Assembly (NCBI RefSeq): GCF_011290385.1
Contig: NZ_CP049785.1
Span: 262,317-326,316, forward strand
Length of the DNA: 64,000 bases
Reading direction: 5' to 3'
Source: Blattabacterium sp. DPU
GTDB lineage: Bacteria; Bacteroidota; Bacteroidia; Flavobacteriales; Blattabacteriaceae
Shown: in pieces, positions 14,226 through 38,595 of the stretch
Layout: the number at the start of each line of letters is the position of its first letter
How positions within the stretch are numbered: position 1 is the first letter of the stretch
Position numbers and translations under genes: made by a program
The notes under the pieces: model-generated
What the model was told of the DNA's origin: nothing
The model's input: the letters and a program-made list of their open reading frames with translations, nothing else
Databases searched by the model: none

Positions 14226-15875
<1,650 letters not shown>

Positions 15876-15914: not shown

Positions 15915-16193
15915 TCATATAATAGCTATTATATCAGATTCTCGCATTATAAGATATTCCTCTCCTTCCCATTTCAATTCTGTACCAGAATACTTACCAT
16001 ACAAAACTCTATCTCCTTCTTTTAAATTCATGGGTTCATCTTTTTTTCCTTTTCCTACTGCTATTATGGTTCCTTTTTGTGGTTTTTCTTTGGCTGTATC
16101 AGGAATAATAATACCTGAAGCAGTTTTTGTTTCAGCAGGATCAGGTTGTACGAGAACGCGATCTGCTAAAGGTTTAATCTTTACTTCCACCAT
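15915..16193 (-). CDS. groES: Co-chaperonin GroES
   Basis: 92-residue co-chaperonin starting [16 protein letters not shown], with the mobile loop around residues 20-33 ([13 protein letters not shown]) and the C-terminal DIIAII. It is the first gene of the groES-groEL pair. The 112 bases between secG and groES carry a 15-bp palindrome and a sigma-54-type -24/-12 element, suggesting the pair has its own promoter despite being in line with the upstream cluster. Confidence 0.98.
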
Positions 16194-16235: not shown

Positions 16236-16252
16236 TAGCCAAAAACATGCCA
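16236..16252 (-). promoter_or_regulatory. Candidate sigma-54 (-24/-12) promoter of groESL
   Basis: On the minus strand the bases read TGGCATG-TTTT-TGGCTA. The GG (16251-16250) and GC (16239-16238) dinucleotides are separated by exactly ten bases, and the match to the consensus TGGCAYG-N4-TTGCW has a single mismatch (G for the second T of TTGC). The predicted start, about 12 bases beyond the GC, would leave a leader of roughly 30 bases before the groES ATG. An overlapping TAATTTG resembles a Bacteroidota housekeeping -7 box and is the rival reading. Confidence 0.55.
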
Positions 16253-16283: not shown

Positions 16284-16298
16284 ATGCCATTATGGCAT
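16284..16298. promoter_or_regulatory. Perfect 7-1-7 palindrome upstream of groES
   Basis: ATGCCAT-T-ATGGCAT, a perfect 15-bp palindrome centred about 40 bases upstream of the putative -24 element. Read on the minus strand it contains ATGCCATAATG, an 11-mer also present on the plus strand in the palindrome upstream of dnaK. It lies 7 bases downstream of the secG stop. Candidate binding site for a dimeric regulator such as the Fis-type HTH of the nearby sigma-54 activator. Confidence 0.55.
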
Positions 16299-16305
16299 AT
16301 TTTAT

Positions 16306-16551
16306 TTAATGTTTTGATTTTAGAAAAAAATTGAAAAATAAAATTAAAAAAAATATAATAATAGACAAAATCCAAGTAATATTCTCTAAAAATGTATTTG
16401 TTCTCTTAATTCCAAAAAATCTAAAATTTTTCTCCATAAAAGATTGATGAATACTTTCTTTTTTAGGATTTTGTACTAAAATCATCAATATAAGTAAAAG
16501 ACACATTATAATGATAAAAAATCCAAATATAATTATAGATATGTTTTCCAT
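16306..16551 (-). CDS. secG: Preprotein translocase subunit SecG
   Basis: 81-residue protein with two membrane helices (about 5-27 and 60-76). The connecting loop ILVQNPKKESIHQSF matches the SecG LVQ pattern; the usual glycine-rich part of the loop is replaced by a short charged stretch. It assists SecYE-mediated export at the inner membrane. Four bases downstream of the LptE-like gene, in the conserved Flavobacterial order before groES. Confidence 0.9.
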   Translation of the reverse strand: MENISIIIFGFFIIIMCLLLILMILVQNPKKESIHQSFMEKNFRFFGIKRTNTFLENITWILSIIIFFLILFFNFFLKSKH

Positions 16552-16555
16552 ATGT

Positions 16556-17053
16556 TTATTTTGTGATTTGCCAATTATTATTTGGATCGTGAAATATTTT
16601 ATGATATACCTGAATTGTTAATTTTTCTATTATTTTGTCAATAATTTCTTTTGAAAAAAGATTTTTTTTATTATAAAATTCTTCGGATACAGTAAAATTT
16701 TCTTCCCAACTTTTTTCAGGTTCAATTTGATCTTTGTAAGATATTTTCGCTGTTACTTTAATTTTTTTTAACGGATAATTTTCCATTGGAATAATGGCAT
16801 AATGTAGAAAAACACCTTCCAAAACAACATCCCCATTTTTCAATACTAAATTAGAAGGATTATGTTTCATAATATATTCTTCAATACTTTTCTTAAAATC
16901 AAAAGAAATAGATCTTTTAGGTATATTAACTACTTCTGAAATATCTCCTATTTCTATTGTCTTATTTGCATCAAATAATGATGAAAAAGATGAATGATAA
17001 CAACTGACTATCATAAAAAACATGAAAAAAAAAATAATTTTTTTATAATCCAT
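16556..17053 (-). CDS. LptE-like outer-membrane lipoprotein
   Basis: 165-residue protein with a short basic N-terminus, a hydrophobic signal segment and a lipobox ending at Cys18 (MIVSC), so it should be lipidated after export. The mature part has the beta-rich layout of LptE-family proteins, which plug the LptD channel for lipopolysaccharide insertion. The call rests mainly on its place between the sigma-54 activator and secG, where Flavobacteria carry LptE. It overlaps the activator gene by 11 bases. Confidence 0.75.
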   Translation of the reverse strand: MDYKKIIFFFMFFMIVSCYHSSFSSLFDANKTIEIGDISEVVNIPKRSISFDFKKSIEEYIMKHNPSNLVLKNGDVVLEGVFLHYAIIPMENYPLKKIKVTAKISYKDQIEPEKSWEENFTVSEEFYNKKNLFSKEIIDKIIEKLTIQVYHKIFHDPNNNWQITK

Positions 17054-18296
17054 ACTGTTTAATTTTTCTATATAATGTTCTTTCTGAAATTCCTAATTCT
17101 TTTGCTGCCTTTTTTCTTTTTCCATTATTTTTCTTCAAGGCTTTTCGAATAAATTCTATTTCTTTTTTTTGTAAAGAAAAAGAAGATAAATTATTTTTCG
17201 ATAAATTTTCTTCTACTTCTTCATAATCTAAATCTTTTTTTGATTTAGATGAATCTTCTAATTGAAAAATTGAATCATTTCTATTATCAATTATTTTTCC
17301 AAAAACTTTTTCCATAAGTGGTTGATTTTTTTCAATAAATCTAGCATTAGAATTATTTTTAATCAATTGAAAAGTAATGTTTTTTAAATCATTCAAATTT
17401 TGTTTCATATCAAATAGAATTTTATAAAGAAAATCTCTTTCTCTATTATGAAAAGATGTATCTATTACATTATGTACATGATGATTAGAAAAAGATATCG
17501 ATGGAATATTTTCTGGAATATATTCTTTTAATTTTTTTGCAGAAATTTCACGTTTAGTTTCCACTACAGAAATTTGTTCTACAAAATTCTTTAATTGTCT
17601 AATATTTCCAGGCCAAGAATAATTTTCTAAATAATTTAAAGATTCTTCGGTAAATATAACTGGAGGCATATGATATTTTTCTGAAAAATCATTGGAAAAT
17701 TTTTTTAATAAAAATTTAATATCATTTTTACGAGAACGTAAAGAAGGCACATTAATTTGTACCGTATTTAAACGATAATATAAATCTTCTCTAAATTTTC
17801 CTTTTTGTATTGATTCTGTCATATTTAAATTAGTAGCTGCTACAATACGTATATTAGTCTTTTGAATTTTAGAAGACCCTACCTTCATAAATTCTCCAGA
17901 TTCTAATATTCTGAGAAGACGGACTTGTGTTGTTAAGGGTAATTCTCCTACTTCATCTAGGAAAATAGTACCTCCATTTGCTACTTCAAAATAACCTTTT
18001 CGCATATTTGTAGCTCCTGTAAAAGATCCCTTTTCATGTCCAAAAAGTTCACTATCAATAGTTCCTTCTGGAATAGCCCCACAATTTACCGCAATATAAT
18101 CATGATGTTTTCTAGAAGAATATTGGTGAATAATTTTTGGAATAAATTCTTTTCCTACTCCACTCTCTCCAAGAACTAATACAGAAATATCAGTAGGAGC
18201 TACTTGTGTCGCTTTTTCTAAGGCTCTATGCAAAGCATAATCATATCCAATAATTCCAAATTTTTGTTTAACATTTTGGATAAAGATGGATTCCAT
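17043..18296 (-). CDS. Sigma-54-dependent transcriptional activator without sensor domain
   Basis: 417-residue bacterial enhancer-binding protein. The AAA+ domain starts almost at the N-terminus: Walker A GESGVGKE (43-50), the sigma-54 contact loop GSFTGA (90-95, a variant of GAFTGA), Walker B GGTIFLDEVGELP (108-120), then the arginine-finger region FREDLYYRL. The C-terminus has a Fis-type helix-turn-helix (KKAAKELGISERTLYRKIKQYGL spread over the last 25 residues or so). There is no receiver, GAF or PAS domain, so activity is probably set by expression level or an unknown partner. Located in the cluster leading to groESL. Confidence 0.93.
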   Translation of the reverse strand: MESIFIQNVKQKFGIIGYDYALHRALEKATQVAPTDISVLVLGESGVGKEFIPKIIHQYSSRKHHDYIAVNCGAIPEGTIDSELFGHEKGSFTGATNMRKGYFEVANGGTIFLDEVGELPLTTQVRLLRILESGEFMKVGSSKIQKTNIRIVAATNLNMTESIQKGKFREDLYYRLNTVQINVPSLRSRKNDIKFLLKKFSNDFSEKYHMPPVIFTEESLNYLENYSWPGNIRQLKNFVEQISVVETKREISAKKLKEYIPENIPSISFSNHHVHNVIDTSFHNRERDFLYKILFDMKQNLNDLKNITFQLIKNNSNARFIEKNQPLMEKVFGKIIDNRNDSIFQLEDSSKSKKDLDYEEVEENLSKNNLSSFSLQKKEIEFIRKALKKNNGKRKKAAKELGISERTLYRKIKQYGL

Positions 18297-18318: not shown

Positions 18319-19641
18319 TCAATGTTTTCCTATTAAAGTTGCAGATGTAGCATTTGTTATTTCTACATGAGCTAAATCCCCTATATTTAAGTTTTTTTTA
18401 GGAAAAACTACAACTATATTTTGTGTATTTCTTCCATACCAATATTGGTTATTTTTTTTTGATTCTCCTTCTACTAAAACTTCTTCTACATTTCCTAAAT
18501 GTTCTTGCATCCTATAAAATGAATGTTTTCTTTGTAAATCAATAATTTCTTTTAATCGTCTTTTTTTAATATTTTCAGGTACATTATCTTTTAATTTTCT
18601 ATATGCATAAGTTCCAGGTCTAGGAGAATAAGAAAACATGTATCCATAATTATATTTAATTTTATTCATTAAACTTATAGTATCCTGGTGATCTTCCTCT
18701 TTCTCATTACAAAATCCAGTCATTATATCATGAGAAATAGAACATCCAGGTATAATATTTTTAATTTTTTTAACTAAAAAAAGATATTTTTCTCGTGTAT
18801 ATTTTCTGTTCATTAATTTTAATATTTTATTGCTTCCAGATTGAACAGGTAAATGAATATGTTTACAAATATTTTTATGTTGAGAAATTACTTTTAATAC
18901 TTTATCAGACATATCATGAGGATTAGATGTAGAAAATCTAATTCTCATAAAAGGAATTTCTCTAGCTAAAAAATCCAAAAGTTGTGAAAAATCTACAGTT
19001 CTATTTTCTTCTATCCATAAATAAGAATCTACATTTTGTCCTAAAAGAGTTATTTCTTTATATCCATTATGATATAAACGTTTACATTCCTCAATTATAG
19101 AATATGGATCTCGACTTCTTTCTCTACCTCTAGTAAAAGGAACGATACAAAATGTACACATATTATTACAACCTCTTGTTATGCTTAAAAAAGTTGTTAT
19201 TTTTTGATCATTTTGTTTTCTTTTTACAAAATTTATATCAGCATAAGTTTCATTTTTTTTCTTTTTATCATAAAAATATTGTTTTCCCATTATAGAATAA
19301 TAAATAAAATTAGGAATTTCTCTATAAGAATCTGGATTTACGAAAAAATCTACTATTTTTTCTTTCAATAAAAAATTTTTAATTTGTTTTGAAAAACATC
19401 CTATAATTCCAATCCAAATTTTTTTCTTTTTTCTAAAAAATTTTAATTGTTCTAATTTTTTTTTTATAGCTAATTCTGCTTTTTCTCTAATAGAACAAGC
19501 GTTTAACAATATTATATCTGCTTTATCTACGTTTTCAGATAAAACAAACCCATGGTTTGATAAAATAGAAGTAACAATATCGCTATCTGATATGTTCATT
19601 TGACAACCATAATTTTCAATATAAAAACTTTTATTTTTCAT
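18319..19641 (-). CDS. miaB: tRNA-2-methylthio-N6-dimethylallyladenosine synthase
   Basis: 440-residue radical-SAM methylthiotransferase that modifies A37 of tRNAs reading UNN codons. The N-terminal domain has three cluster cysteines (YGCQMN, NACSIREKAE, GCFSK), the radical-SAM motif is CNNMCTFC, and a C-terminal TRAM domain ends the protein. The substrate prenyl group derives from the isoprenoid route served by idi. It heads the miaB - activator - lptE-like - secG cluster and has a 15-bp palindrome in its upstream region. Confidence 0.96.
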   Translation of the reverse strand: MKNKSFYIENYGCQMNISDSDIVTSILSNHGFVLSENVDKADIILLNACSIREKAELAIKKKLEQLKFFRKKKKIWIGIIGCFSKQIKNFLLKEKIVDFFVNPDSYREIPNFIYYSIMGKQYFYDKKKKNETYADINFVKRKQNDQKITTFLSITRGCNNMCTFCIVPFTRGRERSRDPYSIIEECKRLYHNGYKEITLLGQNVDSYLWIEENRTVDFSQLLDFLAREIPFMRIRFSTSNPHDMSDKVLKVISQHKNICKHIHLPVQSGSNKILKLMNRKYTREKYLFLVKKIKNIIPGCSISHDIMTGFCNEKEEDHQDTISLMNKIKYNYGYMFSYSPRPGTYAYRKLKDNVPENIKKRRLKEIIDLQRKHSFYRMQEHLGNVEEVLVEGESKKNNQYWYGRNTQNIVVVFPKKNLNIGDLAHVEITNATSATLIGKH

Positions 19642-19660: not shown

Positions 19661-19675
19661 ATGTCATTATGACAT
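19661..19675. promoter_or_regulatory. Perfect 7-1-7 palindrome upstream of miaB
   Basis: ATGTCAT-T-ATGACAT, a perfect 15-bp palindrome centred 27 bases before the miaB ATG, in the 54-base gap after pncB. It differs from the groES palindrome only by one symmetric base change (C to T in one arm and the matching G to A in the other). No sigma-54-type element is seen beside it. Confidence 0.5.
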
Positions 19676-28207: not shown

Positions 28208-28226
28208 ACAGAGATTTCTTTTTAAA

Positions 28227-28326
28227 GGGACAAGCTAAACTACATCACATCGCTACTACCTAATTACCTTTGCTGTGTTCCCACCCTGGAGGAGTTATAG
28301 GGAGCTGATTGTGTAGGACTTGTCCC
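28227..28326 (-). ncRNA. ffs: Signal recognition particle RNA, small bacterial type
   Basis: About 100 nt with complementary ends (GGGACAAG with CTTGTCCC). It has the SRP apical hairpin: CCAGG-GUG-GGAA-CAC-AGCA, where GGAA is the tetraloop (28278-28281) and the flanking CAGG/AGCA form the symmetric Ffh-binding loop. Its base composition is far richer in G+C than its surroundings, as expected for a structured RNA. It guides membrane proteins to the SecYEG/YidC machinery, also encoded in the window. It sits between clpX and the divergent pyrG. Confidence 0.93.
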
Positions 28327-28407
28327 TAGTTTGGTAAATATAAAAAAAAAATCATAAATTCCTGTTTTTTGAATAATAATTATTTATTTAGGTTATTCAT
28401 ATTTTTT

Positions 28408-36562: not shown

Positions 36563-38458
36563 TTATTTTACTTCTTCATAATCTACATCTTGTACATTTC
36601 CATTTCCTTTATTACTTTTTTCTTCATCTTCTTTTTTATTTGATTGTTGATTTGCATTTTTTGTATTATAAATTTCTTGAGAAGCATTAGTCCAAGCTTC
36701 GTTTAATTTTTTCATGTAATTTTCAATAGAAGTAAAATCTTTTTTAAAGTGAGCTTCTTTCAATTTTTTTAAAGAATTTTCTATATTTTTTTTATTATTT
36801 TCAGATAATTTATCCCCATAATCTTTTAATTGTTTTTCAGATTGAAATATTTGATTATCTGCCGCATTTAATTTTTCTATTTCTTGTTTTATTTTTTCAT
36901 CTTTTTGGGCATTTTCTTTTGCCTCTTTTTTCATTTTTTCTATCTCTTCTTGATTTAAACCAGAGGAGGTTTCAATACGTATAGACTGTTCTTTTCCTGT
37001 TCCTTTATCTTTTGCAGATACATTAAGTATTCCATTCGCATCTATGTCAAAAGTTACCTCAATTTGAGGAATTCCTCTGGGTGCTGGAGGAATATCTAAT
37101 AAATCAAAACGACCTATTTCTTTATTATCATTAAACATAGGTCTTTCGCCTTGTCCTACACGTATGGTTACGGCTGATTGGTTATCAGATGCTGTAGAAA
37201 AAATTTCTGATTTTTTAGTTGGTATAGTTGTATTAGATTCTATAAGTTTAGTAAAAACGCCTCCTAAAGTTTCAATTCCTAAAGACAAAGGTGTTACATC
37301 TAATAATAATACATTTTGTACATCTCCTGTTAATACTCCTCCTTGTATAGCCGCTCCAATAGCGACGACTTCATCTGGATTTACTCCTTTAGATGGTTTT
37401 TTACCAAAAAATTTTTCTACCTCTTCTTGTACTTTTGGAATACGTGTGGATCCTCCTACTAAAATCACTTCATCTATATTTTTAGTAGTTAAATTTGCAT
37501 CTTTCAATGCTTTATAACAAGGACTTATAGAACGTTGTATTAATTTTTCGGATAATTGTTCAAATTTTGAACGAGTTAATGTTAAAACCAAATGCTTAGG
37601 ACCTGATTCTGTAGCTGTAATATAAGGAAGATTTATTTCTGTTTGATTTGAAGAAGATAATTCTATTTTAGCTTTTTCAGACGCTTCTTTTAAACGTTGT
37701 AAAGCCATAGGATCTTTTCTTAAATCCAAGGACTCTTTGGATTTGAATTCATTAGCTAAATAATTAATGAGAACTTGATCAAAATCATCACCTCCTAAAT
37801 GAGTATCTCCATTAGTTGATAAAACTTCAAAAACTCCATCTCCCAATTCTAATATAGAAACATCAAAAGTTCCTCCTCCTAAATCGTATACAACAATTTT
37901 TTTATTTTGATTACTTTTGTCTAATCCATATGCTAAAGCAGCAGCAGTAGGTTCATTTATTATTCTTTCTACTTTTAATCCTGCTATTTCTCCAGCTTCT
38001 TTCGTTGCTTGTCTTTGTGCATCATTAAAATAAGCAGGAACAGTAATCACTGCTCTATTAATTTCTTCTCCCAGATAATCTTCAGCTGTTTTTTTCATTT
38101 TTTGCAAAATCATAGCAGATATCTCCTGGGGAGCGTATAATCTTTTTTCTATATCAACACGAGGAGTATTATTTCCTCCTTTTATTACTTTATAAGGAAT
38201 ATGTTTCAATTCTTCAGTGACTTCTGAATACATTCTCCCCATAAATCTTTTTATTGAAAAAATAGTTTTTTGAGGATTAGTAACAGCTTGTCTTTTTGCG
38301 GGATCACCTATTTTTCTTTCTCCTCCTTCAACAAAAGCCACTATAGATGGGGTAGTTCTTTTTCCTTCTGAATTAGGGATAACAACAGGATCATTGATTT
38401 CCATAACAGCGACACAAGAATTTGTTGTTCCTAGATCTATTCCTATAATTTTACTCAT
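36563..38458 (-). CDS. dnaK: Molecular chaperone DnaK (Hsp70)
   Basis: 631-residue Hsp70. The nucleotide-binding domain opens with [15 protein letters not shown] and has [13 protein letters not shown] and the [11 protein letters not shown] motif. Substrate-binding domain and helical lid follow, ending in an acidic tail ([10 protein letters not shown]). Stand-alone gene without dnaJ or grpE beside it. Its upstream region has a 15-bp palindrome related to that before groES, which suggests shared control of the two chaperone systems. Confidence 0.98.
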
Positions 38459-38506
38459 TTTGTTACGTTTTTTTCATATGTTAATTTCATTGAATAGCAC
38501 TCCAAT

Positions 38507-38521
38507 CATTATGCCATAATG
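38507..38521. promoter_or_regulatory. Perfect 7-1-7 palindrome upstream of dnaK
   Basis: CATTATG-C-CATAATG, a perfect 15-bp palindrome centred about 56 bases before the dnaK ATG. It contains ATGCCATAATG, identical to an 11-mer in the groES palindrome read on the other strand. The minus strand from here reads TGGCATAATGATTGGA, close to a sigma-54 element but with GG instead of GC at -12. The region is shared with divergent rplM. Confidence 0.55.
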
Positions 38522-38580: not shown

Positions 38581-38595
38581 ATGACAAAAAGTCAT
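38581..38595. other. Small hairpin in the rplM leader region
   Basis: ATGAC-AAAAA-GTCAT, a 5-bp stem with a 5-base loop, 50 bases before the rplM start. It may be a leader element for the rplM-rpsI unit or chance pairing in AT-rich DNA. Apart from this and the dnaK palindrome, the 186-base gap shows no gene. Confidence 0.3.

Follow-up and report, generated by a model that had tools for sequence, protein, structure and literature searches.

Palindromes upstream of chaperone genes in Blattabacterium are very probably docking sites of the single sigma-54 activator of the genome

The expression of groESL, dnaK, and grpE is co-ordinated by HrcA/CIRCE and sigma-32 heat-shock control. A different arrangement has been described in Flavobacterium psychrophilum, where -24/-12 start sites of the SM4 class were mapped before groES-groEL, dnaK, grpE-dnaJ, htpG, lon, and clpB (PMC9723704). 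Three possible sigma-54 activators were counted in that species, none was assigned to these promoters, and no upstream binding site was reported (PMC9723704). Sigma-54 promoters have also been predicted for GroES, GroEL, GrpE, DnaJ, and DnaK in Bacteroidota, with the highest values in Flavobacteriia (PMC12316311). Because of these two studies, the link between sigma-54 and flavobacterial chaperone genes is not new. In the open-licence literature that we searched we did not find the upstream site, the assignment of an activator, the helical phasing, the likely autorepression, or the presence of this system in Blattabacterium.

The DNA analyzed here, called the window, is a stretch of 64,000 nucleotides (C1:262317-326316) from the 623-kb single-contig genome of a Blattabacterium, a genus for which many genomes of about 0.6 Mb are available. 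The window contains a minus-strand cluster comprised of miaB, a sigma-54 activator gene, a gene for a 165-aa protein, secG, groES, and groEL (Table 1). The 165-aa gene occupies the position of lptE in flavobacteria, and many free-living Flavobacteriales share the gene order of the cluster, interrupted here and there by additional genes. An Rfam scan of positions 14000-39100 returned only a small SRP RNA of the Bacteroidales type (28224-28332, minus strand, RF04183, 87.6 bits).

Table 1. Genes, predicted activator sites, and sigma-54 promoters in the window (window coordinates)
Feature	Sequence	Coordinates	Strand	Basis or remark
groEL, proposed target, in operon with groES		14226..15869	-	Pfam Cpn60, 1.5e-75
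groES, proposed target		15915..16193	-	Pfam Cpn10, 5.7e-35
Sigma-54 -24/-12 promoter of groES	TGGCATGTTTTTGGC	16238..16252	-	genome pattern scan; 32 bp downstream of the site
Predicted activator site of groES	ATGCCATTATGGCAT	16284..16298 (core 16285-16297)	.	conservation in the genus and in Bacteroidota
secG, between activator gene and groES		16306..16551	-	Pfam SecG, 8.8e-13
Sigma-54 enhancer-binding activator		17043..18296	-	Pfam, alignment, model
miaB, first gene of the activator operon		18319..19641	-	TIGR01574, over cut-off
Site heading the miaB-activator operon	ATGTCATTATGACAT	19661..19675	.	exact core upstream of miaB in relatives
dnaK, proposed target		36563..38458	-	Pfam HSP70, 4.4e-265
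Sigma-54 -24/-12 promoter of dnaK	TGGCATAATGATTGG	38502..38516	-	pattern scan; 65 bp downstream of the ATGACAAAAAGTCAT site
dnaK palindrome of the sequence-only reading		38507..38521	.	-24 box forms the right arm; left arm partly conserved
Likely activator site of dnaK	ATGACAAAAAGTCAT	38581..38595	.	dyad TGNC-N5-GNCA; not noticed in the sequence-only reading

A sequence-only reading of this DNA had pointed to 15-bp palindromes upstream of groES, miaB, and dnaK, and we confirmed that all three are present and are perfect 7-1-7 palindromes. Such palindromes are common in this window of 25% GC, with 28 observed against 21.7 expected and, among the G+C-richer ones, five observed against 3.1 expected. 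Thus, palindromy by itself is no proof and the sequence is what counts. The groES and miaB sites belong to one family with the core TGNCA-N3-TGNCA. In pattern searches of the 623-kb genome, ATGNCATWATGNCAT occurred without mismatch exactly three times: at groES, at miaB, and at C1:621619 upstream of grpE. The relaxed core TGNCANNNTGNCA occurred five times, adding a site at htpG (C1:589950) and one match inside a coding gene (C1:380501); a Markov model gives an expectation of about 2.5 matches per genome at any place, and the reversed pattern had no match in the genome. Further sites before grpE or htpG had been predicted, and this genome-wide scan found both. Of 25 genomes of the genus, 20 had matches to the strict pattern, 40 in total, and every one was at groES, miaB, or grpE. 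The one odd site among them (G002:87561) lies in a duplicated grpE promoter and marks no new target.

All 30 groES loci examined in the genus carry the core upstream of the gene with at most one mismatch. It is followed, mostly 32-46 bp downstream, by the promoter 15-mer TGGCATGTTTTTGGC, which is identical in 28 of the 30. At dnaK the element TGGCATAATnATTG is invariant in 30/30 genomes of the genus and is a sigma-54 -24/-12 box; the corresponding boxes of free-living relatives are of the TGGCAYAATSATTGAC type. The proposal that the three palindromes form one family therefore holds for groES and miaB and fails for the dnaK 15-mer at 38507, which we rejected on register and conservation: it consists mostly of the sigma-54 -24 element, and its palindromy is perfect in no more than 16 of the 30 genomes. 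Its left arm (CATTA, 38507-38511) is partly kept in the genus though it lies outside the sigma-54 box. The activator site of dnaK is more likely ATGACAAAAAGTCAT, 65 bp further upstream at 38581. Its dyad, TGNC-N5-GNCA, was found upstream of dnaK in all 30 genomes and is one base off the core in the genus.

In most genomes of the genus the grpE site is followed 11-13 bp downstream by TGGCAAATMTTTTGC, a textbook sigma-54 promoter. At htpG, boxes of the TGGTATAATnTTTGT type come 11-14 bp after the site in most genomes that have both elements; several genomes lack the htpG site or have a degraded form of it. The -24 GG and -12 GC boxes are full before groES and grpE, and the usual C of the -12 box is replaced before dnaK and htpG. 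Two peculiarities of grpE were seen along the way. In one genome (L039; G002:C1, ~86061-89075) the promoter of grpE is duplicated in tandem together with the 5' part of the gene. The duplication, which comes with an expansion of the SSCCQEEIDKEEIDKKK repeat and a single N, is possibly an assembly artefact. The grpE reading frame has one or two internal stops in four other genomes (G045, G011, G019, and G007).

The layout of sites and promoters recurs outside the genus. The comparison covered named loci across Bacteroidota and some 30 further Flavobacteriales genomes that had been selected by means of the activator; exact cores were counted within 200 bp upstream of a gene. In two sets of relatives the exact core was present upstream of groES in 15/25 and 13/19 and upstream of miaB in 34/37 and 20/24. 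Among free-living Flavobacteriales it preceded grpE in 16 of 29 and dnaK in 17 of 29, so that it is absent from 40-45% of the grpE and dnaK regions and from 40% of the groES regions. Shuffled versions of the same upstream regions contained about 0.1 exact cores. Control regions upstream of the activator gene had the core in 1/39 and 1/56 cases, and those upstream of groEL in 0/24 and 0/18. Nearly all of the 55 exact cores in 347 kb of groES-miaB loci were at the groES and miaB promoters. Another member of the family, G047, with a genome of just 345 kb, retains the activator, sigma-54-like boxes, and the sites at groES, grpE, and dnaK. As a family the sites are far from chance: apart from one match inside a coding gene, the core is restricted in the genome to particular promoters, and it is conserved in orthologous promoters across the genus and the order. 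In several free-living relatives (L165, L168, L184, and others) the groES site often lies within the secG terminator hairpin, and one stretch seems to have both roles there.

The distance from the end of the site to the -24 box falls into clusters of 12-13, 22-23, 32-34, 42-44, 53-54, 62-65, and 73-76 bp. A period of 10.5 bp fitted best, with R = 0.90 over 60 promoters, and the control distance from site to start codon gave R = 0.08. Our second rule, which takes the most gene-proximal -24 box, was chosen after the first result, for which R was already 0.85; it removes three doubtful -24 boxes of the first rule (L165, 4 bp; L168, 26 bp; L328, 8 bp). With each distinct distance used once (19 values), R was 0.75. 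The Rayleigh p values are not to be taken literally because related genomes are not independent. Phasing was weaker within Blattabacterium, with R = 0.76 at groES and R = 0.63 at dnaK. The simplest reading of this periodicity is that the sites are bound by a protein that has to face the polymerase.

We then asked which protein this might be. All 31 genomes of the genus contain rpoN (Sigma54_DBD), located at C1:189143 in the present genome, and a search for sigma-54 activators returned exactly one match in each of the 31. Among 79 Flavobacteriales genomes, only two (G076 and G087) had no match to the activator at 1e-70. According to Pfam, the activator encoded next to miaB contains an AAA+ domain (residues 15-181), a lid (187-263), and a Fis-type HTH (381-415). 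Pfam, alignment, and the structural model revealed no N-terminal sensor domain and the protein begins directly with AAA+; the model also contains a long helix (281-313) and disordered stretches. The Walker motifs are present. The loop reads GSFTGA here and GAFTGA in many relatives, and the same A-to-S change is known from the working activator LevR (PMC3162934). As a conserved, predicted dyad-symmetric site lies upstream of sigma-54 promoters, as no second activator was found in the genome, and as its own operon is headed by such a site, the miaB-linked protein is by far the best candidate. Conservation, phasing, and these two features of the activator argue strongly for the earlier suggestion that one dimeric regulator is shared by the sites and that it may be the Fis-type activator.

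The site before miaB probably serves a different purpose, namely repression by the activator of its own operon. In the window, where no clear -7 box was identified, some 20 bp separate it from the start codon, and they contain no sigma-54 box. In relatives, 54 of 55 such sites are followed, mostly 16-21 bp downstream, by TAnnTTTG, which we take to be the -7 element recognized by the primary sigma factor of Bacteroidetes, and a TTG lies within the second half-site. The site in relatives would then overlap the -33 region of a primary-sigma promoter, a position that suits autorepression. The core at miaB is identical to that of the promoters proposed to be activated, as it would be if the activator turned its own operon on and repressed nothing, but both the position of the site in the window and the primary-sigma box in relatives make such positive autoregulation unlikely.

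Other explanations can be given for the family as a whole. Assignment of the activator to the sites is by deduction, and they might be bound by another regulator, such as a chaperone repressor of the HrcA type, while the sigma-54 activator works elsewhere. We consider this very improbable: the window includes groES and dnaK and contains no CIRCE element (TTAGCACTC-N9-GAGTGCTAA) even with up to three mismatches, the sites are in phase with sigma-54 -24 boxes, sigma-54 promoters require an activator of which only one was found, and in most relatives a site heads the operon of that activator. It is less probable still that the palindromes act as RNA, either as hairpins or as terminators, for instance of secG. 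The groES site does lie within a strong terminator hairpin in some free-living relatives (-17 kcal/mol in one). By contrast, folding in the window is weak (groES, -6.1 kcal/mol, z -1.8; miaB, -5.6 kcal/mol, z -0.8), the core also occurs at grpE, dnaK, htpG, and miaB outside any terminator context, and it is in 10.5-bp phase with the promoter. Least credible of all is that these are chance palindromes of an AT-rich genome. Perfect 7-1-7 palindromes are indeed about as frequent as expected, but the restriction of this particular sequence, its conservation, and its phasing refute chance for groES, miaB, and grpE.

The main reading is one that we hold with high confidence: the palindromes would be sites of a single sigma-54 activator that opens chaperone promoters and probably represses its own operon. 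At groESL, grpE-dnaJ, dnaK, and htpG the activator would bind the core TGNCA-N3-TGNCA upstream of the -24/-12 promoter and on the helix face that sigma-54 RNA polymerase also occupies; its AAA+ domain would then open these promoters so that the cytosolic chaperones are co-ordinated. Bound at the head of the miaB operon it would repress its own synthesis. Protein-folding stress is a natural guess for the inducing signal. The SM4 start sites at groES, dnaK, grpE, and htpG (PMC9723704) count as independent support for this explanation.

The occurrence of the site family across free-living relatives points to an ancient control circuit of the heat-shock type. On balance we lean towards the broader view that in Flavobacteriales, and probably in further Bacteroidota, cytosolic heat-shock chaperones are under sigma-54 and one dedicated, sensor-less activator with autorepression and phase-locked sites, of which the nearest, just 12 bp from the -24 box, would need no DNA looping, and that this is the last sigma-54 circuit left in a 0.6-Mb symbiont. 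This would offer a possible reason why a reduced symbiont of the cockroach type retains rpoN and exactly one activator. For a large bacterial group in which mapped sigma-54 promoters had no assigned activator, it also puts forward a probable chaperone regulator together with its DNA site, and it opens the heat-shock control of Flavobacteriales to experiment. The phase-locked, promoter-proximal sites provide a natural data set on the proximity and the helical face that binding of a sigma-54 activator requires.

Compared with known systems, the candidate circuit differs from HrcA/CIRCE and sigma-32 control in that its promoters are of the -24/-12 type and the window has no CIRCE element. The activator resembles one-component activators of the PspF type in that AAA+ is combined with a Fis-type HTH while an N-terminal regulatory domain is absent, and PspF-type structures were among its PDB matches. 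It scored 277 bits against the PspF equivalog TIGR02974, far below the cut-off of 443.55, and it differs from PspF in its proposed targets and in an extra conserved helix and a variable linker between AAA+ and HTH. The work on Bacteroidota promoters (PMC12316311) provides promoter statistics only, with neither an enhancer site nor a cognate activator as proposed here. There is also a likeness to SM4 of F. psychrophilum, whose targets groES-groEL, dnaK, grpE-dnaJ, and htpG are also the predicted targets in Blattabacterium (PMC9723704). To that system we add a predicted site and one candidate activator, and we trace the set to a reduced symbiont.
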